Positions 1,256 through 20,896 of a stretch of DNA of 23,121 nt are shown here, in pieces. Source of the stretch: a virus; IMG/VR virus record IMGVR_UViG_3300005532_000043, positions 1-23,121 of that record; one strand, 5' to 3'. The notes beneath the pieces are model-generated. The model was given only the letters and a program-made list of their open reading frames with translations. It ran no database searches and was not told the origin of the DNA. Position 1 is the first letter of the stretch; the number at the start of each line of letters is the position of its first letter. Both the position numbers and the translations under genes were made by a program.

Positions 1256-2632
1256 ATGCGGAAATTGATTGAGTTGCGGCAAGCACGCGCCGCGTTGATT
1301 GCTGAAGCTCGGGCCATCCAGGATAAAGCCGACAGCGAGAAGCGCGCGTTGACTGCGCAAGAATCGGACCTGTTTGACCAGAAAATGTCGAAGTCGGATG
1401 AACTGCAAACCGAAATCGATAACCTCGCGAAGGCCGAGCAGCGGAAGCAGCGGCTTGCCGAGGTCGAAGCCTCGCTCGAACATCGCGACGACCCTGCTGC
1501 TGGCGGGAGTCGCGACAACGGCGCAAGCGCGCGGAGCGTCCTGGAGTTCAAATCCCGTGCGCCATGGTCTCAGCGTCGCATGGAAATCGACGGCGACGAA
1601 TACGGGATGACTTCGCGGCCCGAGTACCGTCGCGCGTGGGCCTATGCCTGGCGCGCGTTCGCGGCGCAGAAGGACGACCCCGCGCTGGCGAAGCGGCTCA
1701 TGGCAAAGGCCGAAGTCGAGTTGCGTTCGATGCAGATGGACCTGAATACGGCTGGCGGCTTCCTCGTTCCGCCGCTGCAATTCATCGCGGACCTCATCAT
1801 GGCCGTCGACGATCAGGTTTTCATCCGCCAGCTCGCGACGGTGCAAACGTTGACGAATGCGGTTTCGCTCGGAGCGCCCACGCTCGACAGCCAAGCTGAC
1901 GATGCGGACTGGACTTCCGAGCTTGCCGTCGGTAACGAATCCGCCGGGCCGACGATTGGCCGTCGCGATTTGACCCCGCACCCGCTCGCGAAGTTCATCA
2001 AGGTCTCGAATAAGCTGCTGCGTGCGGCCGCGATTGACCCCGAGGCCCTGATTCGCGACCGCTTGGCCTACAAGTTCGCCATCTCGCAGGAGAAGGCGTT
2101 CATGAGCGGCACGGGCGCGGCCCAGCCGCTCGGCCTCTTTACCGCATCCCCATTCGGCATCTCGACGAATCAGGATAAGTCGACGGGCTCGGCGACAGGC
2201 TTCCTGGCCGACAATCTCATCGACGCGAAGTATGCGCTCAAGCCGCAATACTGGCCGCGCGCGCGCTGGCTCTTCCATCGCAACGCCATCGCCGCGATCC
2301 GCAAGCTGAAGGATTCGCAGGGGCAGTACCTCTGGAATCCGGGCGCGATCTCGGGTACGGCGGGCACCGGCTTGATTGCTGGTTCTCCCGACCGGCTGCT
2401 CGACCTGCCCCTCACCATCTCGGAATACTGCCCTGGCACGCTGACGACCGGGCTGTACGTCGGGATGCTCGCTGACTTCTCGAAGTACTGGATTGTCGAT
2501 GCGCTGAGCATGAGCTTGCAGCGCCTGGTGGAACTCTTTGCCATGACAAACCAGACCGCCTTCGTGCTGCGCATGGAACTCGACGCCATGCCGGTTATCG
2601 AAGAAGCCTTCATCCGGCTGAAGACTGCCTAA
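1256..2632 (+). CDS. Major capsid protein, HK97 gp5 fold
   Basis: 458 aa, preceded by a strong SD site (AAGGAGGAGG, about 1242-1251). Residues 1 to about 80 are charged and predicted coiled coil, which fits the delta domain that acts as scaffold and is removed by the upstream protease. The mature part begins around residue 95-115. The segment AGGFLVPP (166-173) marks the entry to the HK97 fold, and ISQEKAFMSGTGAAQPLGL (276-294) is the family's most recognisable block. The C-terminus (LFAMTNQTAFVLRMELDA) also fits the family. The protein assembles the icosahedral shell. A Lys/Asn crosslinking pair as in HK97 cannot be assigned by eye. Confidence 0.95.
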   Translation: MRKLIELRQARAALIAEARAIQDKADSEKRALTAQESDLFDQKMSKSDELQTEIDNLAKAEQRKQRLAEVEASLEHRDDPAAGGSRDNGASARSVLEFKSRAPWSQRRMEIDGDEYGMTSRPEYRRAWAYAWRAFAAQKDDPALAKRLMAKAEVELRSMQMDLNTAGGFLVPPLQFIADLIMAVDDQVFIRQLATVQTLTNAVSLGAPTLDSQADDADWTSELAVGNESAGPTIGRRDLTPHPLAKFIKVSNKLLRAAAIDPEALIRDRLAYKFAISQEKAFMSGTGAAQPLGLFTASPFGISTNQDKSTGSATGFLADNLIDAKYALKPQYWPRARWLFHRNAIAAIRKLKDSQGQYLWNPGAISGTAGTGLIAGSPDRLLDLPLTISEYCPGTLTTGLYVGMLADFSKYWIVDALSMSLQRLVELFAMTNQTAFVLRMELDAMPVIEEAFIRLKTA

Positions 2633-5274: not shown

Positions 5275-5303
5275 CTTTTTTGCGCTACTGCGGTGATTGA
5301 TAG

Positions 5304-5471
5304 CTACGCGGAAGCTATTCGACTTCGCTCTTGGCGGTAGGCCGAAAGGTCGACGCCCTTCAGCTTCAGATAGGCAAGAAGCGTCCAGCGGCGATACCAC
5401 GGCCAGTGAGCCAGCCATGACAACGCCGATGATGCTCGCGGATCGCTGTGATCGAAACGCGTCCAATTCAT
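5304..5471 (-). CDS. Small Trp-rich protein, second gene of an antisense pair
   Basis: 55 aa on the minus strand. The ATG at 5471 overlaps the TGA of the upstream minus-strand gene (ATGA), and a strong SD site (GGAGGAAGAG) lies just before it inside that gene's last codons. This coupling is hard to explain by chance. The protein has five Trp and an amphipathic, basic middle part (ALSWLAHWPWYRRWTLLAYL) followed by a charged tail. I do not recognise a family. The size, coupling and amphipathic helix would fit a toxin-like or membrane-active peptide, a regulator or a phage moron, but none of these is shown. The ORF in the opposite direction (N-terminal extension of the repeat protein) reads like antisense noise here. 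Confidence 0.66.
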   Translation of the reverse strand: MNWTRFDHSDPRASSALSWLAHWPWYRRWTLLAYLKLKGVDLSAYRQERSRIASA

Positions 5472-5656
5472 TCTCTTCCTCCGGTTGCAACATAGTGATC
5501 GAGTCGCGCAGCCATCGCTTTTGCCGCGCGCTTCGCATCGCCGTGCTTCGTGGCGTCGAGATAATCCGCGCGAAGGTTTGCCGGCCAGTAGACCCGCGCA
5601 TCCTGCGGAGCGGCGAGAATCCGCGCTTTCAGGTCCCACAGTTCCTTCGTCTCCAT
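5468..5656 (-). CDS. Small charged helical protein, first gene of an antisense pair
   Basis: 62 aa on the minus strand, starting at ATG 5656. Composition is that of a real soluble helical protein: METKELWDLKARILAAPQ, then RADYLDATKHGDAKRAAKAM, with codon choice like the rest of the window. The nearest purine-rich stretch (AAGGAA) is too far upstream for a normal SD site, so the initiation signal is weak. A stop codon lies in frame ten codons upstream, which fixes the N-terminus within a short range. It is coupled through ATGA to the 55-aa gene. No family is recognised. It opposes the late operon and could be expressed in the lysogen; any promoter would have to lie in the 5' part of the repeat-protein gene, and I could not identify one. 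Confidence 0.66.
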   Translation of the reverse strand: METKELWDLKARILAAPQDARVYWPANLRADYLDATKHGDAKRAAKAMAARLDHYVATGGRE

Positions 5657-7546
5657 AGGGCGGCAGTCTATCTGTTCCTTCCGCTACTAGCAATCGCGCA
5701 AGGGACCTACGGGCAGACTCCGGCATTCGTGCAGTCGTGGGGCGTCTTCAGCCCCAGCTCAGTGAATGTCACGCAGACTTCGGCGTCGAGTGTAAATCCC
5801 GGAGACACGGTGATTGTCCATGTGTTTTGCGGCGCGAATCCATGCACGGTAACCGTCTCCGGCAGTCGCGGCGAGACATACACGTCGCTGCGAGGGCAGG
5901 CTCTGGCCACGGACGGTGACTTTACGCAGGCGTGGTGCGGGAACCCAACGGGTACTGGCACAGATGACATCAGCGTGTCGCACAGCGGCGCAGTGGGGCT
6001 GGGGTTCATAGCGATTCACGTCACCGGAGCCAGTTGCACGACGGACGGAATCAATTCGAGCAATACGACGTGTTCTTCGGCGTGCACGAGCGGGAACATC
6101 ACCACGACGCTGGCCAACGACTTCCTGGTTGGCCTCTACGGCAACACAAACAACTTCAGCACGTCCGTTGCGCTGGGCACAGGATGGTCGAATCTCGGAT
6201 GTACGCGCACTACGGATGGCGCATTTCTCACCGGAGCGTCATGCTCCGGGCAGCGGACGATTACGGCTGTCGAGACACAACTGGCGTCAACTGCGGGTAC
6301 TTATGCGGCGACCTTCAACGCGTCAGTAAGCGATGAAACCGCAATCATCGTGATTGCGTTGCGAGCCTCCGCCGGAGCAGGTTCCTTTACCGCCAGCCCG
6401 AGCGTGACACTCACGACATCTGACAGCGTTGGCCGAGTTTCGTCGCGCAATATCAATGTGACCGAGTCGGCCTCGGTTGTTGATGCGACGGCCAACCAGT
6501 ATGCATTCCACATCGCAAAAGCGGAGACCCTGACAACCTCGGATGCGGGCGCGGTTGGACATTCCGAGTTTCGATCAGCCGCCGAAACGCTCTCAACCGT
6601 GGGCACCGTTGCGGTGATAAATGGCCGCAACCCGATTGAGAATCTGTCAACTGCTGGCAGCGTGGCAATCTCCGGCGTGTATTCACGCGGTCCTCCGGCG
6701 GAATCGCTGACCACGTCGGCCTCGGTGACGGCAACAAAGACGAAGCAGTTTGCAGTGAACGTGGCGGAATCCCTGATGGTGGAATCACTCCGTACAATAG
6801 ACTCGGCTTCGGCGCAGCCTGCCCATCTCGGATCAGTCACAGAAACTTTGAGTCATTCCGACACAGCGACGGCAACGTCGCCGCGCAGCATAATTGTGGT
6901 TGAGAGCATTGCGACACAGGACAGCGTTGGCAGCGCAAGCCCATCGAATATCGCGCCAACCGAAAACCTCACGACGAACTCGAGTGTCACTTGCATGTCC
7001 TGCGTGGGAAATTTCTCCGAAACACTGCACACGCTTGACGTTGTCTCGGCGCTGAAAAACGGCTCGCAAAGCTTTTCCGTGACGCCAGTCGAGAATCTGT
7101 CGACCTCGGGAAGCGTAACCGCCCGAGCGTCTTTCGTAAGAGCTGTTGGCGAAGTGACCTCATCCGTGGACTCAACGACAACCGCCAGGGCGCTCCATGC
7201 TGCTGCTGTCGAGTCACTGACAACTTCAAGCGGCATAACGACCGGAGGGGCGATCAGCCGAACGGTATCAGAGGCGCTGTCCACGACCGATTCGGGGGTC
7301 GGCGTGCTTGCGAATCCATCGAATCGCGGAGTCTCGGAAGCGCTGACAACGACTGCTAGCGTGGCAGTACGGCAGAGCAGGTCAGCCTCACTGACAGAGA
7401 GCCTTACTGCGGTAGACGTGGCGACGGCGGCGGTAGCTCACCGGCTCGGGCTGTTCGAGAATCTCACGCTCGCGGACCAGGTAAGTGTGGTCGTCCAACG
7501 CGTGGGCACTCATCTGCGGCGGTCTATGGTGATTGACACGCCGTGA
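5543..7546 (+). CDS. Exported repeat protein: beta-sandwich domain plus about 18 ESLTT-DSV repeats (start uncertain)
   Basis: The frame is open from a TTG at 5297, but 5297-5656 lies opposite two better-supported minus-strand genes and reads like noise. No ATG exists near the export signal at about 5660-5710 (AAVYLFLPLLAIAQGTYG). GTG 5543 is the nearest conventional start and is only a placeholder (667 aa). After the signal comes a ~215-residue beta domain with paired Cys. It has a pattern I associate with Acidobacteriota exoproteins: GSRGETYTSL, GLGFIAIHVTGASC and TSGNITTTLANDFLVGLYG. From about 6390 to the end there are ~18 degenerate repeats of 19-24 residues, consensus [VA]-x-E-[SNT]-L-[ST]-T-x-D-S-V-x-A. 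Such repeats usually form elongated stalks. The gene overlaps the next one by GTGA. The missing start may mean a 5' truncation. Confidence 0.68.
   Translation: MLRGVEIIRAKVCRPVDPRILRSGENPRFQVPQFLRLHRAAVYLFLPLLAIAQGTYGQTPAFVQSWGVFSPSSVNVTQTSASSVNPGDTVIVHVFCGANPCTVTVSGSRGETYTSLRGQALATDGDFTQAWCGNPTGTGTDDISVSHSGAVGLGFIAIHVTGASCTTDGINSSNTTCSSACTSGNITTTLANDFLVGLYGNTNNFSTSVALGTGWSNLGCTRTTDGAFLTGASCSGQRTITAVETQLASTAGTYAATFNASVSDETAIIVIALRASAGAGSFTASPSVTLTTSDSVGRVSSRNINVTESASVVDATANQYAFHIAKAETLTTSDAGAVGHSEFRSAAETLSTVGTVAVINGRNPIENLSTAGSVAISGVYSRGPPAESLTTSASVTATKTKQFAVNVAESLMVESLRTIDSASAQPAHLGSVTETLSHSDTATATSPRSIIVVESIATQDSVGSASPSNIAPTENLTTNSSVTCMSCVGNFSETLHTLDVVSALKNGSQSFSVTPVENLSTSGSVTARASFVRAVGEVTSSVDSTTTARALHAAAVESLTTSSGITTGGAISRTVSEALSTTDSGVGVLANPSNRGVSEALTTTASVAVRQSRSASLTESLTAVDVATAAVAHRLGLFENLTLADQVSVVVQRVGTHLRRSMVIDTP
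6390..7545 (+). repeat. Tandem degenerate protein repeats (~20 residues, ~18 copies)
   Basis: Translated units include AESLTTSASV, ENLTTNSSV, ENLSTSGSV, VESLTTSSGI, SEALSTTDSG, SEALTTTASV and TESLTAVDVA, spaced 19-24 residues apart. The DNA of the units has diverged, so this is an old protein-level repeat array and not a recent DNA tandem duplication or a CRISPR. One further unit (SESLATTDSV, about 7651-7680) sits at the mature N-terminus of the next gene product. Confidence 0.85.
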
Positions 7547-10110
7547 AGAAGCAGATCGCCATCGTCATCATCGGTCTGGCGCTCCTCACCGTCGCTTACG
7601 GTCAGCAGCAATGCTCCGTAACGCTCAATCGCGCACTTCACTTCGGACCCGTATCGGAGTCGCTTGCGACCACTGACTCGGTAGGGGCGTCCAAGTCAAG
7701 CTCTGGCGGCGGAGGTGGCATTCCCGCCTCAGCCGGATGGTTCTCGATCCCAAATACTGCGTGGACCAATTTGTGTCCGAATGCAGCGGGAGCGCGGCCT
7801 GATGTGCAAGGTCAAAGCGGTTGCAGCGCCGTGGTGGACGCGTGGGCTGGCGGTGCGGCTGACACAGTGCGAAACCGTCTCTATTTCACAGGTGGCGGTC
7901 ATCACGATTACTACGGCAACGAAATTTACGCGCTCGACCTGAACACGCTGACGATTTCGACACTAAACCGAGCGAGCGATGCCAGCAGCTTGAACACTAA
8001 TTCCAATTCGTACGACACGATGCCGGATGGGACGCCTGGCGCAAGGCACACTTACGGCGGCATCGCGTACTACCCGGATAATGACTCTATCGTGATGATG
8101 GGCGGAGGACCGCCTAATCCGGGCGGAACGGTTTCGACGACGTGGGCAATCAGCATCTCGAAGCTGAATCCGGCAACGACGATGGGCGTGCAACCCTCGG
8201 GCGCGGCAAAAAACATGAACCCGACTCTTGTCGGCGGTTCGCTTGTCGGTCAGTTCGGAAACGTCGAGGCGTACGACCCGAATATGCGGCTGATGTATCT
8301 GTGGGAACCGTGGGAGAGTCAGCCCGGCCAACTCTGGAGCTACAATCAGGCGACGAACACCTACACGTTCATTCGTTCGATGACTGATTCCGGCGCTTTT
8401 AGCGACGGAGACCAGAGCGGCACTTACGACCCTGTGCATCAGATTCTATACGCTGTCGGCAACGGAAAGATTCTCGCGGTAAGCATGGCGAGCGGGAGTA
8501 ATCACGTTCCAACGAATTACGGCAGCGCGAGCGGGTGCAACACTGCGGCTGTCTCATCCACTCATCCGGGCGTAGCTTATGATTACGCAGACGGCAATCT
8601 TGTCATCTGGAACGGCGGAAATTCCGTCACCGTTTTCAACTCAACTTCGCACACATGTACGACTGAGACTTACAGCGGCGGTCCGACAACGGTCGGTGCG
8701 AATGGCACATTTACGCGCTGGCAGTACTTCCCGTCGCTCGGTGTGTTTGCGGTCTGCAATTCGAAATCTGAAAATTGCTTCACGTTGCGTCGCACCGTGG
8801 ACGTAGTTTCCGCGAACGGCTTTGCGAATCGTGTTGCTGGAATCAACACGCCGGGCGGTGCAAGCTCGATTGTTAGTTGGCAGAGCTTCGATACCTACCC
8901 GCAGACAAACAAGCAGCAGTACTTCCAGACGAATATCGCGTCGCAGCTGAATACGGATTGCACGCAGGCTAACACGGATGGTTGCGCTCTCGAGTTTTCT
9001 TTCAAGAACGGCGACTTTCAGGCCGGGCCCGGCTGGTTCAACTACAATTTTTCTCCGAGTTTGACCGCGTTGTACGGCCAGAACTCAGAGTTTTACGTAC
9101 AGTACAAGGAACGCATCACATCGTCGGCGCTCTCGCGTTCGTCATGGGATAGCGGATTCACCGACTGGAAAATGGCGATTCTGCGCGAGGGCGACAGTAA
9201 TACTACGCAGGCAACGAACTGTTCTAGCACGCCTACGGATTTGGTGCTCGATTCGGATGCCGGGCACATTGCATCTGCGGTGATGCCGTGGGTGTATGTC
9301 AACTGCGGAAACGCAGGCACGCTGAATTTTCTTAACTCTCCGTTTCAGCCGATTCAGTATCCGCTGGTTTCTGGCGCAACGGACCTGCTGGACCAGCCAG
9401 CAAGCGGCGGTCCGCATTACGGCAGTGGAGTGAATGGCTCAACGGTGCCGGTAACGGACCCAACAGCGTGGAACTTCACGGCCAATGAGTGGTTTACGAT
9501 TCAGGCGCACGTGAAAATCGGCACATGGAATACGGCGACTTCGGTAATCGAGATGTGGGCGTGTCATCAGGGACAGCCATGCAGGCTGGTGACGAATGCG
9601 GCGGATGCTGCGCTGAACGACACGGGCGGAAGCGTCACTGACAAGTTCGGAGCTATTGTGCTGCTGCCCTACGCAACGGGCGCAACGTGGCTCACAAACG
9701 TGAACTACTGGTACGACGACCTGATTGTATCGAATCGGCGCATACCGGACCCGGATGTGGCGACGCCCAATGCGCCGGATTCGTTGTCGCTTTCCTCGAT
9801 TTCGAGTTCGAGCATCACCGTCAACTGGAGAGTGAACTCGAACAACGGAACGGCGCAGGACGACACGGGCTTTCTCGTCGAGCGATGCACCGGGACAGTT
9901 GGAACGTGCATGCCTAATCCGCAATCGGGCTTCACGCAGATTGGCACGACCGCGGCCCACGCTTCCAGCTACGTGGACAATACGGTGAGTGCGGGGCACA
10001 CGTACACGTATCGGGTGCGAGCCAAAAACGCGAACGGAAATTCCGCTTACACTGTCGCAATTTGTTTCAACTCGGGTTCTACTACTTGCGGCGGTACTGC
10101 GGCGATTTAG
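7543..10110 (+). CDS. Secreted multidomain protein: Kelch-like propeller, jelly-roll-like region, Fn3
   Basis: 855 aa with a GTG start overlapping the previous stop (GTGA). Residues 1-20 (MKKQIAIVIIGLALLTVAYG) are a classic Sec signal peptide. Residue ~39 onward carries one SESLATTDSV repeat and a Ser/Gly linker. About 65-440 shows recurring blade-like strands: RNRLYFTGGGHHDYYGNEIY, NDSIVMMGGGPP, YDPVHQILYAVGNGK and YDYADGNLVIWNGG. These fit a six- to seven-bladed Kelch/galactose-oxidase-like propeller. About 445-740 (CALEFSFKNGDFQAGPGW, then TDWKMAILREGD, and NEWFTIQAHVKIGTW) looks like a concanavalin/polysaccharide-lyase-type jelly roll. About 745-848 is an Fn3 domain (ITVNW ... YTYRVRAKNANGNS). 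The design suggests glycan binding or cleavage outside the cell; no catalytic residues can be assigned. Base composition appears less GC-rich than the capsid genes. Confidence 0.82.
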   Translation: MKKQIAIVIIGLALLTVAYGQQQCSVTLNRALHFGPVSESLATTDSVGASKSSSGGGGGIPASAGWFSIPNTAWTNLCPNAAGARPDVQGQSGCSAVVDAWAGGAADTVRNRLYFTGGGHHDYYGNEIYALDLNTLTISTLNRASDASSLNTNSNSYDTMPDGTPGARHTYGGIAYYPDNDSIVMMGGGPPNPGGTVSTTWAISISKLNPATTMGVQPSGAAKNMNPTLVGGSLVGQFGNVEAYDPNMRLMYLWEPWESQPGQLWSYNQATNTYTFIRSMTDSGAFSDGDQSGTYDPVHQILYAVGNGKILAVSMASGSNHVPTNYGSASGCNTAAVSSTHPGVAYDYADGNLVIWNGGNSVTVFNSTSHTCTTETYSGGPTTVGANGTFTRWQYFPSLGVFAVCNSKSENCFTLRRTVDVVSANGFANRVAGINTPGGASSIVSWQSFDTYPQTNKQQYFQTNIASQLNTDCTQANTDGCALEFSFKNGDFQAGPGWFNYNFSPSLTALYGQNSEFYVQYKERITSSALSRSSWDSGFTDWKMAILREGDSNTTQATNCSSTPTDLVLDSDAGHIASAVMPWVYVNCGNAGTLNFLNSPFQPIQYPLVSGATDLLDQPASGGPHYGSGVNGSTVPVTDPTAWNFTANEWFTIQAHVKIGTWNTATSVIEMWACHQGQPCRLVTNAADAALNDTGGSVTDKFGAIVLLPYATGATWLTNVNYWYDDLIVSNRRIPDPDVATPNAPDSLSLSSISSSSITVNWRVNSNNGTAQDDTGFLVERCTGTVGTCMPNPQSGFTQIGTTAAHASSYVDNTVSAGHTYTYRVRAKNANGNSAYTVAICFNSGSTTCGGTAAI

Positions 10111-13872: not shown

Positions 13873-14138
13873 GTCTCGGCCTCACGGAAGCCGACTTCGA
13901 CAGTATCAGCCCGGCCCGCTTCTTCGCTCTTTGCAGAGAATGGCGGAAGAAAGAAGAGCGCGAAGACCGCAGGACGGCCCTGGTCGCGTTCACTATAGCA
14001 AGCTGCCTCGGCAAACGGCGCGATGGAGGCGACTTCCGCATCGAGGACTTCATGCCTGGCCCGCGCGAGCCAGAAGAGCAATCGCCCGAAGAAATGCTGC
14101 AAATTTTGAGGAGCATCGATGGCAGTAACAATCGGTGA
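13830..14138 (+). CDS. Tail assembly chaperone, T-part, -1 frame relative to gpG-like gene
   Basis: The frame is open from before 13686 to 14138 and has no usable start codon after 13686, so it is probably translated by a -1 ribosomal frameshift out of the gpG-like gene; the start given is only nominal. After the end of that gene it encodes LGLTEADFDSISPARFFALC, then REWRKKEEREDRRTALVAF, then a tail ending in EQSPEEMLQILRSIDGSNNR. This layout (GLT-x-x-x-F, aromatic 'F-x-x-x-x-x-x-W', charged helix) fits the T domain. It overlaps the tape-measure start by 20 bases. No classical X-XXY-YYZ heptamer could be found in the overlap. Confidence 0.72.
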   Translation, partial: GAVAGTDLWAFSRISLGLTEADFDSISPARFFALCREWRKKEEREDRRTALVAFTIASCLGKRRDGGDFRIEDFMPGPREPEEQSPEEMLQILRSIDGSNNR

Positions 14139-16134
14139 ACTGCTCGTAAACCTGCGAGCGTCTACTGCGGCATTCGCCAAAGACCTCGACAAGGCGCAGC
14201 AGCTCTCCCTCGATTCGGCAAAGGAAATCGAGCGCTCATTCACGCGCGTCAGTGGCGTAATCGCAACCGAGTTGGGCGCAGCCGCAACGGCGATAACCGC
14301 GGCCGTCGCCGGGGCAATCGAGAATGCCGATAAAATGGGCATTCTCGCGCATCAGGCAGGCCTCACGGCGGACCAATTCACCGCGCTGGCCTACGCCGCA
14401 AGCCTCAGCGATGTTTCCGCCGAAACGCTCAATTCCGCCCTCGTCAACCTATCGAAAAACCTCGAAAAGTCGAATCAAGAGACGCAGGAAGGCGCTGCCG
14501 CGCACACGGCGCTTGCCACTCTTTACGGCGGCTCAATTCCCACATTTAAGAATACGAACGATGCGTTCCTTGACATCGTTCAACGTCTCCATGACCTCGG
14601 ACCCGGCTACCAGCAGACGGCGCTCGCTTCGCAAATATTCGGACGGCAACTCGGCGCGCAACTGGTGCCCATGCTTGATTCAAAAAAAGGCATGGCCGAA
14701 CTGGCTGAGGAAGCCAAGTCCTTGGGCGTCGTCATCAGCGACGACCTCGCGAATAAGGCGAATCAATTAGATGATACTGTCCTAAAAATTGAGGACGGAC
14801 TAAAGGGCCTTGCGCTTCGCGTCGCAGTTGACCTCCTGCCTTATCTGCAAAAGCTCGCAGATCAATTCCTCGACAGCGAAAAGAACGCGCAAAAATTCGA
14901 TGACCGCGTTCAGAGCCTTGCTGCGGGCGTCAAAATCCTCGCTACAGGCGCTGTCGCAATTTACGGCGCGCTGCGATTTATCGCCGATGGCGCGGCTGAG
15001 GCTTACGTCGCGATAACGCTCCTCGGCAAGGCCTTGCTCAATCCGCAAACGGACTGGCGAGAGGGAATCGACCAACTAAAGGCTCTCGACAAGCAATGGG
15101 AAGATGACACGCGGAGCACCATCAGCACGATTCAGGGCCTCTGGACAGACCTGGGCAAGACCGTTGCATCCTCCGGCAGCGCAGGCGGAGGGGGCGGCGG
15201 CCTGGCCGGCGGCCTGTCGAAATCACAGAAGGATTTGCAGTCCGCAATCGATGCGACGGTCGCAAGCCTCTCGCACGAGATCAACGAGCTGACCCTCGGC
15301 GCGAACGCTACGCAACTCTATGAGCTTCAGGTCAAGGGCGCGAATGATGCAATCCTCAACTACGTCCAAACGCTGCAAACCTACGTCGAGCGCCTGAAAG
15401 ATGGGCGGGATGTGCTCACTGGCCTGCCGCCGCTCGTGCAATCGACCGCCGATGTCTCTGGCGAACTCGACACGACCTGGCAGGATTTGTATGAGCAAGG
15501 CGTTCGCCTCTGGTATGACACTCGCACAAACATCGAGAAATACGCGCTCGCACAGAACGAACTAAACGCCATCGTGGCCGTCTTCCCCGAATTTGCCGAC
15601 GCGGCAAAGCAGAAACTTCAGGAACTCGCTCAGCAGCTTGGCCTCGTCGCGCAGCCCGAGCAAAAACTGCATCTCGATTTTCGCGCCTTTGCGCGAGACA
15701 TGGTCGACGGGTTCGCTCAGGCCATCGTCGGCGCGCGGAGCTTCGGAGACGTTTTGCGGCAATTGGTGGTAGACCTGGAAGAGGCGATCCTAAAAACGCT
15801 CGTCTTCCAGCAAATCAGCAGCGCGCTGAGCGGCAAAACCGGAATCCTCGGCTTTATCGGCAGCATTTTCGGCGGCTTCCGTGCTTCCGGCGGCCCGGTA
15901 AGCGCCGGAACCTCCTACGTCGTCGGCGAAAAAGGCCCGGAGATCTTTACGCCAAGCACTTCCGGCATGATCGTGCCAAACGGCGGCGCTGGCGTCCAAG
16001 TTGTCTACAACATCGACGCGCGCGGAAGCTCGATTACCGAGCAGCAGTTCCGGCGCTCGCTTAAGGACAGCGAAGACCGCGCTGTTGCGCGCGCCCTTGT
16101 GACGCAGCGCGAACTCTCGCTTAGGACCGCATGA
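14119..16134 (+). CDS. Tail tape measure protein
   Basis: 671 aa with an SD site (GAGGAG, 14108-14113). Helical N-terminus MAVTIGELLVNLRASTAAFA with many Ala and Gln (about 1-60), a hydrophobic segment (AATAITAAVAGAIENA), and the typical LAHQAGLTADQFTALAYAAS phage tape-measure block (about 76-95). A second hydrophobic helix is near 270-285 and a Gly-rich linker is at about 354-366 (GSAGGGGGGLAGG). The C-terminus carries FRASGGPVSAGTSYVVGEKG and PEIFTPSTSGMIVPNG, highly typical of tape-measure C-termini. The protein sets tail length: with the usual ~0.15 nm per residue this would predict a tail of about 100 nm (inference). Confidence 0.95.
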   Translation: MAVTIGELLVNLRASTAAFAKDLDKAQQLSLDSAKEIERSFTRVSGVIATELGAAATAITAAVAGAIENADKMGILAHQAGLTADQFTALAYAASLSDVSAETLNSALVNLSKNLEKSNQETQEGAAAHTALATLYGGSIPTFKNTNDAFLDIVQRLHDLGPGYQQTALASQIFGRQLGAQLVPMLDSKKGMAELAEEAKSLGVVISDDLANKANQLDDTVLKIEDGLKGLALRVAVDLLPYLQKLADQFLDSEKNAQKFDDRVQSLAAGVKILATGAVAIYGALRFIADGAAEAYVAITLLGKALLNPQTDWREGIDQLKALDKQWEDDTRSTISTIQGLWTDLGKTVASSGSAGGGGGGLAGGLSKSQKDLQSAIDATVASLSHEINELTLGANATQLYELQVKGANDAILNYVQTLQTYVERLKDGRDVLTGLPPLVQSTADVSGELDTTWQDLYEQGVRLWYDTRTNIEKYALAQNELNAIVAVFPEFADAAKQKLQELAQQLGLVAQPEQKLHLDFRAFARDMVDGFAQAIVGARSFGDVLRQLVVDLEEAILKTLVFQQISSALSGKTGILGFIGSIFGGFRASGGPVSAGTSYVVGEKGPEIFTPSTSGMIVPNGGAGVQVVYNIDARGSSITEQQFRRSLKDSEDRAVARALVTQRELSLRTA

Positions 16135-16754
16135 GTATCACCTATCCGCTGTCGCTGCCCTCGTCTCCGCCCGGAATCGAGGCAATCGAGCTTTCGTCGA
16201 ATGACGTTGTAGGCATCGGCGCGTCTCCGTTCACCGGGCAGCAGCAGATTCTCGAATGGCCCGGTAACTGGTGGACGGCGCGCATCTCTCTCCCGCCGAT
16301 GTATCGCGTTGATGCCGAGCGATGGATCGCGTTTCTCGTGTCGCTCAAGGGCATGTCGGGAACTTTCCTGCTGGGCGATCCGAACGGAAAGACGCCGCTC
16401 GGAATCGCGACAGGAACGCCGCTCGTGAACGGCTCGAATCAGACCGGCAAGGTGCTGGCGACGAAAGGATGGACGCCGAGCATCGCTGGGATTCTGAAAG
16501 CTGGCGACTACCTGCAAATCGGCAGCGGCGCCACGACGCGCCTCTACAAGGCGATGAAGGATGCGAATAGCGACGCGTCGGGCAACTGCGTCGTGGATGT
16601 GTGGCCCTCAATCCGCGACCTGCCCGCGGACGGGGCCGCAATCGTCACTTCGTCGGCCAAAGGCACCTTCCGCCGAAACTCGAATCAGCAGGCGTGGACA
16701 ATCAACAAGGACAAGACGTACTCGATAGCCTTTGACGCCATAGAGGCGATATGA
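16131..16754 (+). CDS. Distal tail-associated protein
   Basis: 207 aa overlapping the tape measure by ATGA. The sequence is beta-rich with WPGNWWTARISLPPMYRVDA and WIAFLVSLKGMSGTFLLGDP near the middle, and VWPSIRDLPADGAAIV and KTYSIAFDAIEAI towards the end. This resembles the tail proteins found directly after the tape measure in phages whose next gene is a DUF2163-like protein, acting as the distal tail ring. I assign the role from the pattern and the gene order. No signal peptide or enzyme motif is seen. Confidence 0.82.
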   Translation: MSITYPLSLPSSPPGIEAIELSSNDVVGIGASPFTGQQQILEWPGNWWTARISLPPMYRVDAERWIAFLVSLKGMSGTFLLGDPNGKTPLGIATGTPLVNGSNQTGKVLATKGWTPSIAGILKAGDYLQIGSGATTRLYKAMKDANSDASGNCVVDVWPSIRDLPADGAAIVTSSAKGTFRRNSNQQAWTINKDKTYSIAFDAIEAI

Positions 16755-17386
16755 CGCGAGCGCTCACTAGCGCGATGGGTACTGCCATCGCCGCGGACAA
16801 GGTCTATCCGGTTGTCTTTGTCGAAATCAGCTTCGCTTCCGGCATCGTGAGATTTTGGTCGGGCCTCGGGCCAATCACCTGGAACGGCCTGACATGGTAC
16901 GGCACCGGCGCTCTCGGTTCGATGTCGCAGCTCCCGGAAACGAGCGATTTGCAGGCACAAGGCGTTTCGCTATCGCTCTCGGGCATCCCATCGGACATTC
17001 TCGCGGATTGTCTCGGCGAAGTGCGTCAGGGGAAGCCAGCGCGAATCTGGTTCGGCGCCATGGATGCATCCGGCGGCCTGATTGCCGACCCGTATCAGGC
17101 GATGGCGGGCCGCGTCGACGCCGTCAAGCTCTCCGAGGGCGGAGATACTTCGACGATTACGGTCAATGTGGAAACCCAACTCGTCGATATGCAGCGCGCG
17201 CGCGATCGCCGCTATACCGACAAGGACCAGCAGTTTTATTTTCCCGGCGACCTCGGTTTCCAATACGTGCCCGCGATGCAGACATGGACTGGCGTCTGGG
17301 GCCGCAAAACCACAAGCGCAAGCTCTGGCGGCGGAGGCGGCGGAAACGGCGGCGGAGGGTCGAAGAATCCGAGGTTTGCGGCCTGA
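16751..17386 (+). CDS. Tail protein, DUF2163-like (distal tail / baseplate hub component)
   Basis: 211 aa, ATGA overlap with the previous gene. The opening VVFVEISFASGIVRFWSGLG and PITWNGLTWYGTGALGSM fits this tail family, as do the LQAQGVSLSLSGIPSDILAD block and the ARDRRYTDKDQQFYFPGDLG segment near residue 160. The C-terminus is a Ser/Gly-rich flexible tail (about 190-205). In gene transfer agents and related siphophages this gene is followed by a cysteine peptidase and the tail-tip protein, exactly as here. Confidence 0.86.
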   Translation: MTRALTSAMGTAIAADKVYPVVFVEISFASGIVRFWSGLGPITWNGLTWYGTGALGSMSQLPETSDLQAQGVSLSLSGIPSDILADCLGEVRQGKPARIWFGAMDASGGLIADPYQAMAGRVDAVKLSEGGDTSTITVNVETQLVDMQRARDRRYTDKDQQFYFPGDLGFQYVPAMQTWTGVWGRKTTSASSGGGGGGNGGGGSKNPRFAA

Positions 17387-17808
17387 TGTCCTTGGAGCGG
17401 CTCGACGATTGGGACTTGCGACTGAATGAACTCGTTGCCGACCGCGGGAACTCGCCATTTTCATGGGGCGCAAACGATTGCATCCTGTTCGCCTGCGATT
17501 GCATTTTGGCGATCACGGGCACGGACCTTGCGGCGGAATTTCGCGGCAAATATCGAACACGATTGCAGGCAGCGCGCATCCTGAAGGACTTCGGCGGCCT
17601 CGAACGGTTGGCCGACAGCTTCGCTGCGAAGCATGAAATTCCGCGCCTCGAATTTCCGGCACTCGCGCAGCGCGGCGACGTTGGCCTTGTCGAATCAGGT
17701 CACGGCCTGGCGCTGACGGTAGTGGCCGACAGATACGTCGTCGCACCTGGCGCTTCCGCACTCGAATTTATTCCTTTCTCGCGCCTGACGCGCGCATGGA
17801 GAATCTGA
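17386..17808 (+). CDS. NlpC/P60-like tail peptidase domain protein (DUF6950-type)
   Basis: 140 aa from ATG 17386, sharing one base with the previous stop (TGATG). The motif FSWGANDCILFACDCI (about 25-40) carries the probable catalytic Cys32, in the same context as NlpC/P60-like phage tail proteins; GHGLALTVV (about 105-113) would supply His106. Between them lies the RGDVGLVESG strand typical of the fold. Such proteins are thought to open peptidoglycan locally during DNA entry or to assist tip assembly. Its place between the DUF2163-like and tail-tip genes is standard. Confidence 0.87.
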   Translation: MSLERLDDWDLRLNELVADRGNSPFSWGANDCILFACDCILAITGTDLAAEFRGKYRTRLQAARILKDFGGLERLADSFAAKHEIPRLEFPALAQRGDVGLVESGHGLALTVVADRYVVAPGASALEFIPFSRLTRAWRI

Positions 17809-17812
17809 CATT
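17798..17812 (+). promoter_or_regulatory. SD site GGAGAA placed for an ATT start codon
   Basis: GGAGAA (17798-17803) lies inside the last codons of the NlpC-like gene. It is six to eight bases upstream of ATT at 17810, the first codon of an uninterrupted hydrophobic reading frame leading into the tail-tip protein. No ATG, GTG or TTG occurs in that frame until 17906, and no SD site precedes that ATG. Confidence 0.6.
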
Positions 17813-20800
17813 CCGGTAATCGTTCCCATCCTGATCGGCCTCGGCATTGCGGCCTCGGCCGCGCCTATCGCCGTCGGCATTTTCGGCAGCATCTTTCTCT
17901 TCAACATGATGGTCGGCATCGGCCTGACGACGGTGCTGAGCGGCGTCGGGCGGCTCCTGCAAAAGCGCCCGAATCTCGCGCAACTCATTTCCGATTCCGC
18001 CAATCGCGCCGTCACCGTCAGGCAGCCGATCTCGTCCTGGCGCGTGATTTACGGATCGCTCGGGCAGGTTGGGGGCATCATCACGTTCATGCATGTCGAG
18101 GGCACGAGCAACGAGTTTCTGCATCTCGTCATCACGCTCGCGGGCCACAAGTTGCACGCCATCAATACCATGTACTTTGACGGTGTCGCCGTTCCGCTCG
18201 ATGGTTCCGGCAATGCGACGGGCAACTATGCTGGCTTCGTCTTTGTCGAAAAGAATCTCGGGACGACGACGCAGTCGGCTTTCGCCGATCTCGTCGCCAA
18301 ATCGGGCGGCAAATGGACTTCAGCACACAAGCAACTCGGCCGCGCGGGCGTCCATGTTCGCCTCAAATTCGACCAGAACAAATTTCCGAACGGCATCCCG
18401 AATATCACTTTCGACGTACAGGGCAAAGAGGTCTATGACCCGCGCACGAACGCGGCGGGATTCAGCAACAATGCGGCGCTCTGCATTGCAGACTATCTCA
18501 CGACGAAGGATTACGGGCTAAACGCCAAGACGCAGTTCGCGACGCGAATGCAAACCTCCGGCGGCTCGGCTCTGACGAAATCGATCTCGCAGGTAGTCAC
18601 GCCATCGGTCAACGCTCAGGATTACGAGCTGCTGTGCTTCGTCGAAAATATCGGCACGAAAGACGCACAACTGAACATGCGTGACACGGCAGGCTCGCTC
18701 GGGACGGTTCCCGTCCTCGTGAAGGCGGGCACTAAAGGGAACGTCTATCAGCGCGTGACCGGAGACGGCGTAGCCAATATCCAATTTTGCGTTCAAAGCA
18801 CGTCCGTCGGCGACTCGCTCGACCTGCTGCTGTTCAACCCCATCATCAGGCGCGCCGGGCTCGACGAGAACCTGCTGGCTTCGCAGGATTTCACAACCGG
18901 CTTTGGCACGCTCAGCGGCTCATCAGTTACGGTTACGCAAGGACATCTCGCCTCCGTCGAAATCGACCGCGCGGCGCTGATTACCGCCGCGAATATCTGC
19001 GATGAAGCCGTGACGCTGAAGGCTGGCGGTACGGAGGCGCGGTATACCTGCAACGGCGCTTTCGAGACAAGCACGGTCCCGTCCGAAATCATCGCCGGGA
19101 TGCTCAGCGCAATGGCCGGCCGCTTGGTCTACAGCGGCGGCGTCTTTCAAATCTTCGCAGGCTCCTACCTGACGCCGACGGCGACGGTTACAGATGGCGA
19201 TTTTCGCGGCCCGATGAGCCTCACACTGGCAAAATCGAAGCGCGACCTCTACAACGGCGTCAAGGGCGTCTACGTCTCGCCGCTCAATAACTGGCAGCCG
19301 AGCGACTTTCCTCCATTCCAGAACGCGGCCTATGTCGATGAGGATGGTGAGGAAATGTGGGCCGATGTCGAGATGCCCTTCACGACTTCGGCTCCGACAG
19401 CGCAGCGCCTCGCCAAAATCCAGCTTGAGCGCAATCGGCGGCAAATCACCGGCGTGCTTCCGCTGAAGCTATCGAAGTATGGCATTTCGACGCTCGACGT
19501 GATTCAGATCACGCACTCGCGTTTCGGCTGGACGAATAAAACATTCGAGGTTGTGTCGCTCAATCTCGTGCAGGATTCAGGCGGAAGCGATGGCGCTCTC
19601 ATCGGCGTAGACGTTTCGGTGCAGGAGACGGATTCCAACGTCTACGTCTGGACGCCATCGGTAGACGAGCAGAACGTTGACGCCTTCCCAGCCGTCAATC
19701 CCTATGACCCAACGCAGGTGGGCAGCGTCTCAAGCCTCGCCGTCGCCGCCGCAATTGTAACCACGCCTGACGGCGTGCAGATGCTTAAGGGCAGGCTGAG
19801 TTGGACTTCGCCCGCAGACGAGTTTGTCCTTGCCGGCGGCCGCATTCATATCTACGTGAAGAAGCATTCCGACGCGAACTATCTCCAGGCTGGCGTCGTG
19901 AGCGGACGCGAAGTTTCCTTCGACGTGCCGCTGATTCTGAGCGGCGTGGCCTACGACTATCAGGTCATCTGCGAGAACATCCACGGCGTCCTTGGCTCGG
20001 CCGTCACGCTCTCAAATCAGACCGTCAATTCCTCCGTCAGCGGAATGCTGACCTATCGCCCTCTGACGAATCCGCTGACCGCGCATGACGCCGGCGCGAC
20101 GGCGACGATCAATGTCGGGTCGTTCACGATGCGGATCCAGGGGATCGGCGACGTCAGCATAAACTCGGGAGCGATCACCGGGCTTTCGTTCAATACTCTC
20201 TATTTCATCTATTACGACGACGACCAGCTCGCCGGCGGCGCGGTGACATTCGTAGCGACTACGACAAAAGAGACCACACTCGACGGCAACGGCCGATTTT
20301 TCGTCGGATCGATCCTCACGCCGATCGACGGCTTCGCAGACACCGGCGGCAACAATGACGGGGGAAGCGGAGCGCAGAGCGGGATGCTGAATCGGGTCTA
20401 CTTGACGCAGATCTCGCAGTCGCTTTTCGGTAATGCGGCCGTAGCGAATGGCTTCCAGTTCGCGGACTCGGACGAGAGGACCAGCGCTGAGCTTTCGGCG
20501 ACGGCTAACGGCTCAAATAATTTTGGCACCTTGCGACTGACCGGCGGCGCGGGGATGAATCGCCGTTACACTTCGGCGACGCTGAATATCCTCTACTCAG
20601 TTCCTACCAACACGACCGCGGGCGGCCCCGCAGGAATTACCGTCGCTCAGGTCCTCGGCTGCATTCTCGGGAGCGACGGGAATCTATACGACTTTTTGGA
20701 CAACACGGCCTTGACGGTCAACATTCCGCAAGGCGGGGGCACCGTGGCGAAGACGAAAGTCTCTATCGCCATCCCGCCTGGTACGAATCTCAACCAGGTC

Positions 20801-20896
20801 TGCGCTGTCCTGAACGTTCTCTTCGGAAATACGGCCAGTAACTCCGGGCAGATCAAGATCGACGGATTTCTGGCTTATCTCGAGCTGGTTGAATAA
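17810..20896 (+). CDS. Tail-tip / host-specificity protein (lambda J-like), probable ATT start
   Basis: 1028 aa if translation starts at ATT 17810; 996 aa from ATG 17906. The extra N-terminus (PVIVPILIGLGIAASAAPIA and GIFGSIFLFNMMVGIGLTTV) is the hydrophobic segment typical of J-like central tail proteins, and it has an SD site, so I prefer it. Next come the NRAVTVRQPISSWRVIYG block (about 64-81), the NAALCIADYLTTKDYGLNA block (about 221-239) and IDRAALITAANICDEAVTLK (about 385-404), all J-family hallmarks. Between the last two lies an extra ~140-residue module, where most relatives join them within a few residues. An Fn3-like domain is near 640-740. The C-terminal ~300 residues are beta-rich and probably bind the receptor. 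The protein forms the tail tip and determines host range. Confidence 0.9.
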   Translation: MPVIVPILIGLGIAASAAPIAVGIFGSIFLFNMMVGIGLTTVLSGVGRLLQKRPNLAQLISDSANRAVTVRQPISSWRVIYGSLGQVGGIITFMHVEGTSNEFLHLVITLAGHKLHAINTMYFDGVAVPLDGSGNATGNYAGFVFVEKNLGTTTQSAFADLVAKSGGKWTSAHKQLGRAGVHVRLKFDQNKFPNGIPNITFDVQGKEVYDPRTNAAGFSNNAALCIADYLTTKDYGLNAKTQFATRMQTSGGSALTKSISQVVTPSVNAQDYELLCFVENIGTKDAQLNMRDTAGSLGTVPVLVKAGTKGNVYQRVTGDGVANIQFCVQSTSVGDSLDLLLFNPIIRRAGLDENLLASQDFTTGFGTLSGSSVTVTQGHLASVEIDRAALITAANICDEAVTLKAGGTEARYTCNGAFETSTVPSEIIAGMLSAMAGRLVYSGGVFQIFAGSYLTPTATVTDGDFRGPMSLTLAKSKRDLYNGVKGVYVSPLNNWQPSDFPPFQNAAYVDEDGEEMWADVEMPFTTSAPTAQRLAKIQLERNRRQITGVLPLKLSKYGISTLDVIQITHSRFGWTNKTFEVVSLNLVQDSGGSDGALIGVDVSVQETDSNVYVWTPSVDEQNVDAFPAVNPYDPTQVGSVSSLAVAAAIVTTPDGVQMLKGRLSWTSPADEFVLAGGRIHIYVKKHSDANYLQAGVVSGREVSFDVPLILSGVAYDYQVICENIHGVLGSAVTLSNQTVNSSVSGMLTYRPLTNPLTAHDAGATATINVGSFTMRIQGIGDVSINSGAITGLSFNTLYFIYYDDDQLAGGAVTFVATTTKETTLDGNGRFFVGSILTPIDGFADTGGNNDGGSGAQSGMLNRVYLTQISQSLFGNAAVANGFQFADSDERTSAELSATANGSNNFGTLRLTGGAGMNRRYTSATLNILYSVPTNTTAGGPAGITVAQVLGCILGSDGNLYDFLDNTALTVNIPQGGGTVAKTKVSIAIPPGTNLNQVCAVLNVLFGNTASNSGQIKIDGFLAYLELVE

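Follow-up and report, generated by a model that had tools for sequence, protein, structure and literature searches.

The window analysed here, by which we mean the whole 23,121-base stretch of DNA, is a virus record in which the head genes come first and are followed by a tail module (Table 1). Within this module, a DUF6950 gene is directly followed by a long reading frame, hereafter J, that encodes a tail-tip protein. The start codon of the DUF6950 gene, ATG 17386, overlaps the stop of the preceding gene, and an apparent start at CTG 17383 was rejected since this ATG is present. Between the head and tail genes, the region 5297-10110 encodes two large proteins of 749 and 855 residues without PHROG match, the 855-residue one showing weak Kelch and fn3 matches.

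The J frame lies in +1 relative to DUF6950 and is open from 17789 to 20896, its stop being at 20894-20896. A single base (C) separates the TGA of the DUF6950 gene from an ATT at 17810, and a GGAGAA ends six bases 5' of this ATT. No ATG, GTG or TTG occurs in the J frame between the TGA at 17786-17788 and the ATG at 17906. This layout agrees in its coordinates with the preliminary description, which had read the frame as open upstream of 17906, had proposed the ATT directly after the previous stop as the start and had foreseen that automatic annotation would begin at 17906 and lose 32 residues; indeed, a mechanical list of open reading frames begins J at 17906. Another ATG, at 17796, opens a seven-codon ORF (MENLTFR, then a stop); it is formed where an Ala codon meets a Trp codon (GCA TGG) and was judged to be due to chance.

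Table 1. Coordinates of the features discussed in the text, numbered from the first base of the window.
Feature	Position	Strand	Evidence
Major capsid protein, head gene	1256-2632		
Tape measure protein	14119-16134		
Distal tail protein	16131-16754		
Tail protein of phrog_2048	16751-17386		
DUF6950 gene, directly 5' of J; ATG start, C-terminus RAWRI-stop	17386-17808	+	Pfam PF22262, E=1.4e-38
TGA, closest in-frame stop 5' of J	17786-17788	+	
GGAGAA, Shine-Dalgarno-like, within the closing W-R codons of DUF6950	17798-17803	+	Anti-SD duplex; TGGA invariant in junction alignment
TGA that ends DUF6950, separated from ATT by one base	17806-17808	+	
ATT, very probable start of J (relatives: ATG, one GTG)	17810-17812	+	
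32 codons lost with a 17906 start; hydrophobic N-terminus, positional match to the megatron iris/penetration domain	17810-17905	+	
J-like tail-tip gene (central tail fibre/megatron type), 1028 residues from ATT	17810-20896	+	
Internal ATG, first ATG/GTG/TTG of the J frame; rejected as main start	17906-17908	+	
Extra segment of ~135 residues in J (residues 241-378)	18530-18943	+	Among aligned relatives only in L121 and L184
C-terminal part of J, apparently exchanged between window and L184	20243-20893	+	

J is a J-like or megatron tail-tip protein, as established by profile, sequence and fold matches. Its best profiles are phrog_5616 (E=1.2e-92) and phrog_31, annotated as central tail fiber J (E=1.2e-50), its sequence matches the T5 pb3 and lambda J chains, and Foldseek retrieves DT57C/T5 pb3 (2.0e-27), lambda J (4.5e-27) and a chain of the RcGTA virion (9.1e-12) from a model whose mean pLDDT is only 61; the likeness to the RcGTA virion is seen by fold only. 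The position of the gene, after those for the tape measure, the distal tail protein and DUF6950/peptidase-type proteins, is that expected of this family, and the order tape measure, distal tail protein, tail protein, DUF6950 and J is shared with RcGTA, R4C, T5 (pb3) and lambda (J). The window protein differs from these megatron and J-like proteins by its ATT start codon and by an extra segment of ~135 residues, which among 20 aligned sequences is found only in the window and in its closest relative L121, and additionally in the near-identical L184.

A hydrophobic N-terminal segment is present in all 19 aligned relatives. Such an N-terminus had been expected of J-like proteins in general, which proved right for the present family and for the megatrons of RcGTA and R4C, with which the window protein shares this feature, but not for every J, as lambda J starts with polar residues. 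In the megatrons of RcGTA (residues 1-46; PMC7296036) and R4C (residues 1-45; PMC10276861), this region forms an iris/penetration domain, the helices of which block the tail channel and have been proposed to insert into the outer membrane. The N-terminus of J agrees with this domain in position, length and hydrophobicity, and may correspond to a channel-gating iris/penetration segment. As AlphaFold models of residues 1-74 are of low confidence (mostly below pLDDT 50), it is by position, length and composition that this assignment is made.

The first canonical start in the J frame is ATG 17906, and the obvious alternative is that translation begins there (or at 17909), the frame upstream being open by chance or as a relic. 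Several features make this very improbable. From the 17906 start, only 49 residues precede an invariant Tyr-Gly motif, as against 81 from the ATT and 66-115 in 19 relatives, and the segment dropped would be the one that forms the channel gate in RcGTA and R4C. A Shine-Dalgarno site at normal spacing is present for ATT 17810 and absent for ATG 17906, the predicted pairing with the anti-SD being -6.4 and +1.2 kcal/mol, respectively. Furthermore, GC3 over 17813-17905 is 0.81 in the J frame, close to the 0.75 of the rest of J, versus 0.55 and 0.42 in the other two frames, a codon-position bias which suggests that this stretch is coding. CTG 17831 was also considered as a start and was rejected because its SD pairing is weaker (-3.0 kcal/mol) and the conserved Met-Pro would be lost. 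The GGAG Shine-Dalgarno of the ATT is itself a moderate one: about 7% of random positions pair with the 16S tail as well as ATT 17810 does, so that this signal is supportive and not proof by itself, and it is the codon-exact alignment of the ATT with the ATG of relatives, rather than the SD alone, that excludes chance.

This alignment was obtained from J-relative loci collected among viral and genomic contigs, and complemented by matching the junction as a DNA pattern. The starts of L006, L063, L040, L083, L014, L164 and L137 had been misplaced automatically and were corrected by eye. Among the 59 distinct homologous junctions of the hand-corrected set, ATG occupies the aligned codon in 57, GTG in one (L090) and ATT in one (L184). 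For the ATN scan of the junction pattern, the ATG count is a sample among the matches listed. The comparison is closest with L121, whose J is 41% identical to that of the window: the 18-base junction TGGAGAATCTGACATGCC of L121 and its counterpart TGGAGAATCTGACATTCC of the window are identical apart from ATG versus ATT. When 14 sequences are aligned as DNA, the ATT occupies precisely the column of the ATG, an invariant CC (proline codon) follows and TGGA is invariant too. The identity of the aligned codon in relatives was a check that the preliminary description had itself proposed, with ATG counting as strong support, and its outcome is positive; stop codons in the stretch matching 17810-17906, which that description had named as speaking against the ATT, are present in none of the aligned relatives. 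Searches among annotated phages returned only distant J homologues, with identities of at most 42% and none covering 80% of the protein, so that no close relative is annotated among them.

The same comparison bears on a second alternative, in which J would need no start codon and would be produced as an extension of DUF6950 by a +1 frameshift at the stop (AUC UGA C), as in RF2 (prfB). The J frame is indeed +1 to DUF6950, its stop is followed by C (UGA C) and a GGAG is found shortly before it. Yet relatives sharing the UGA C context carry their own ATG right after it, as in L121 and in the other J junctions in which TGAC directly precedes the start (L028, L102, L124, L137, L147, L150, L153, L155, L160, L161, L164, L176 and L210), which indicates that the context is inherited and that recoding is unnecessary; moreover, by codon-anticodon reasoning, the tRNA on AUC would re-pair poorly with UCU. 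Frameshifting was rejected on these grounds, as a highly unlikely origin of J. ATT 17810 is very probably the translation start of J, and most likely derives from an ancestral ATG by a change of the third base from G to T.

The second ATT carrier, L184 (IMGVR_UViG_3300027706_000050), is a distinct contig whose ATT is identical to that of the window; identity between the two is 98.4% over 10 kb and, in a 1-kb stretch farther along, 93.0%. Between 16152 and 20244, only one base differs over 4 kb, and on either side the divergence amounts to several percent. Both carry an intact J, with 1028 codons in the window and 1031 in L184; a single synonymous change is found over residues 1-811, and residues 812-1028 are heavily changed. 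The pattern of the C-terminal 217 residues suggests a swap of the receptor-binding tip between the window phage and L184, and, as read from the two contigs, there is block-wise mosaic exchange between these phages.

As both carriers are metagenomic contigs, with no isolate known, an error of sequencing or assembly was considered, and likewise a mutation that left J non-functional in a prophage undergoing decay. We regard either as extremely improbable: the contigs share the ATT despite differences of 1.5-7% elsewhere, and in both of them J has stayed intact (1028-1031 codons) while its receptor end was exchanged, which speaks for a functional gene. As the surroundings of the ATT are identical in the two carriers, the pair represents one lineage and does not demonstrate persistence of the ATT through divergence.

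Initiation at the ATT would proceed with the fMet initiator tRNA reading the codon as a near-cognate start, aided by the GGAG Shine-Dalgarno just 5'. The AUU codon forms a third-base mismatch with the CAU anticodon of this tRNA, and IF3, which accepts third-base pairs of the Watson-Crick or G/U type, opposes weaker ones, AUU/CAU included (PMC10158994). The layout, in which a single base separates stop from start and the SD is embedded in the last codons of the preceding gene, fits translational coupling from DUF6950 to J, and ribosomes fresh from the DUF6950 stop would probably help by re-initiation, a process that an SD strengthens and that excess IF3 reduces when the stop is adjacent (PMC2268962). 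The product would begin with fMet-Pro-Val-Ile, to be compared with fMet-Pro-Pro-Val-Ile in relatives, and would keep the hydrophobic, putative iris/penetration segment, presumably with a yield below that of an ATG start.

AUU-initiated genes are already known as a kind. The preliminary description had named infC as the known case; it is one, but not the only one, since pcnB of Escherichia coli (for infC and pcnB, PMC1780047; PMC4245954) and cvfC1 of Staphylococcus aureus also start with AUU, non-canonical starts in cvfC1 yielding ~10% of AUG expression (PMC13009471). As with J, annotation programs place the start of infC (IF3; E. coli and other bacteria) downstream, an error corrected by peptides in Xanthomonas (PMC5559785). 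The two differ in that the AUU of infC occurs in several bacteria and functions in the autoregulation of a host factor, whereas J is a structural gene of one phage lineage with relatives that use ATG. The AUU of pcnB, a host gene, is likewise rare, and was shown by measurement to limit synthesis. Like J, cvfC1 combines AUU with an upstream SD (PMC13009471), but there the SD is extended and the AUU is conserved within staphylococci, while the window has an ordinary GGAG and ATG relatives.

The preliminary description had suggested that an ATT would keep expression low, to suit a protein required in only a few copies. These precedents raise the question of whether the ATT, besides serving as the start, was selected as a regulator that makes synthesis of a three-copy protein low-level, IF3-sensitive and tied to translation of DUF6950. 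AUU lowers the yield (in cvfC1 of S. aureus, to ~10% of that from AUG; PMC13009471), AUU starts regulate infC and limit pcnB (PMC1780047), each R4C virion contains three copies of its megatron protein (PMC10276861) and J directly follows the adjacent stop. Should the AUU act as a working control, J would depend on the host IF3 level and on DUF6950 translation, and a channel-gating, membrane-active tip would be made in small, regulated amounts. We nevertheless think such a role unlikely: ATG serves in relatives that share the gene order and presumably the copy number as well, so that a low-copy protein can do without ATT, and the change is known from one lineage only.

Switches from AUG to AUU are very rare, with 1 among 61,358 ancestral AUG starts of cellular genes in a survey of closely related bacteria and archaea (PMC5622118). 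A literature search of limited scope returned no description of a phage gene that begins with AUU/ATT, and as far as this search goes the window case is new. Few genes are documented to start with AUU, and here the switch is pinned to one base of a structural phage gene which is probably essential. With an ATT start, gene finders that accept only ATG, GTG or TTG would cut off the segment that may close and open the tail channel, and similar annotation errors may occur elsewhere in viral databases. Furthermore, the ATG of L121 and the ATT of the window constitute a matched natural pair for gauging the efficiency of AUU directly after a stop codon.

A complete scan for non-ATG codons in the A-W-R-stop-C context gave ten stretches, among which only L184 is a J junction, and a scan for overlapping TGATT starts in the A-W-R-stop context gave 43 stretches and no J. 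A non-J gene pair seen in L247, L255 and L260 has an upstream gene ending in ARAWRI-stop that overlaps ATT CCT CCA (pattern TGATTCC; IPPHIVGMAFQLCQ...), with an ATG eight codons on.
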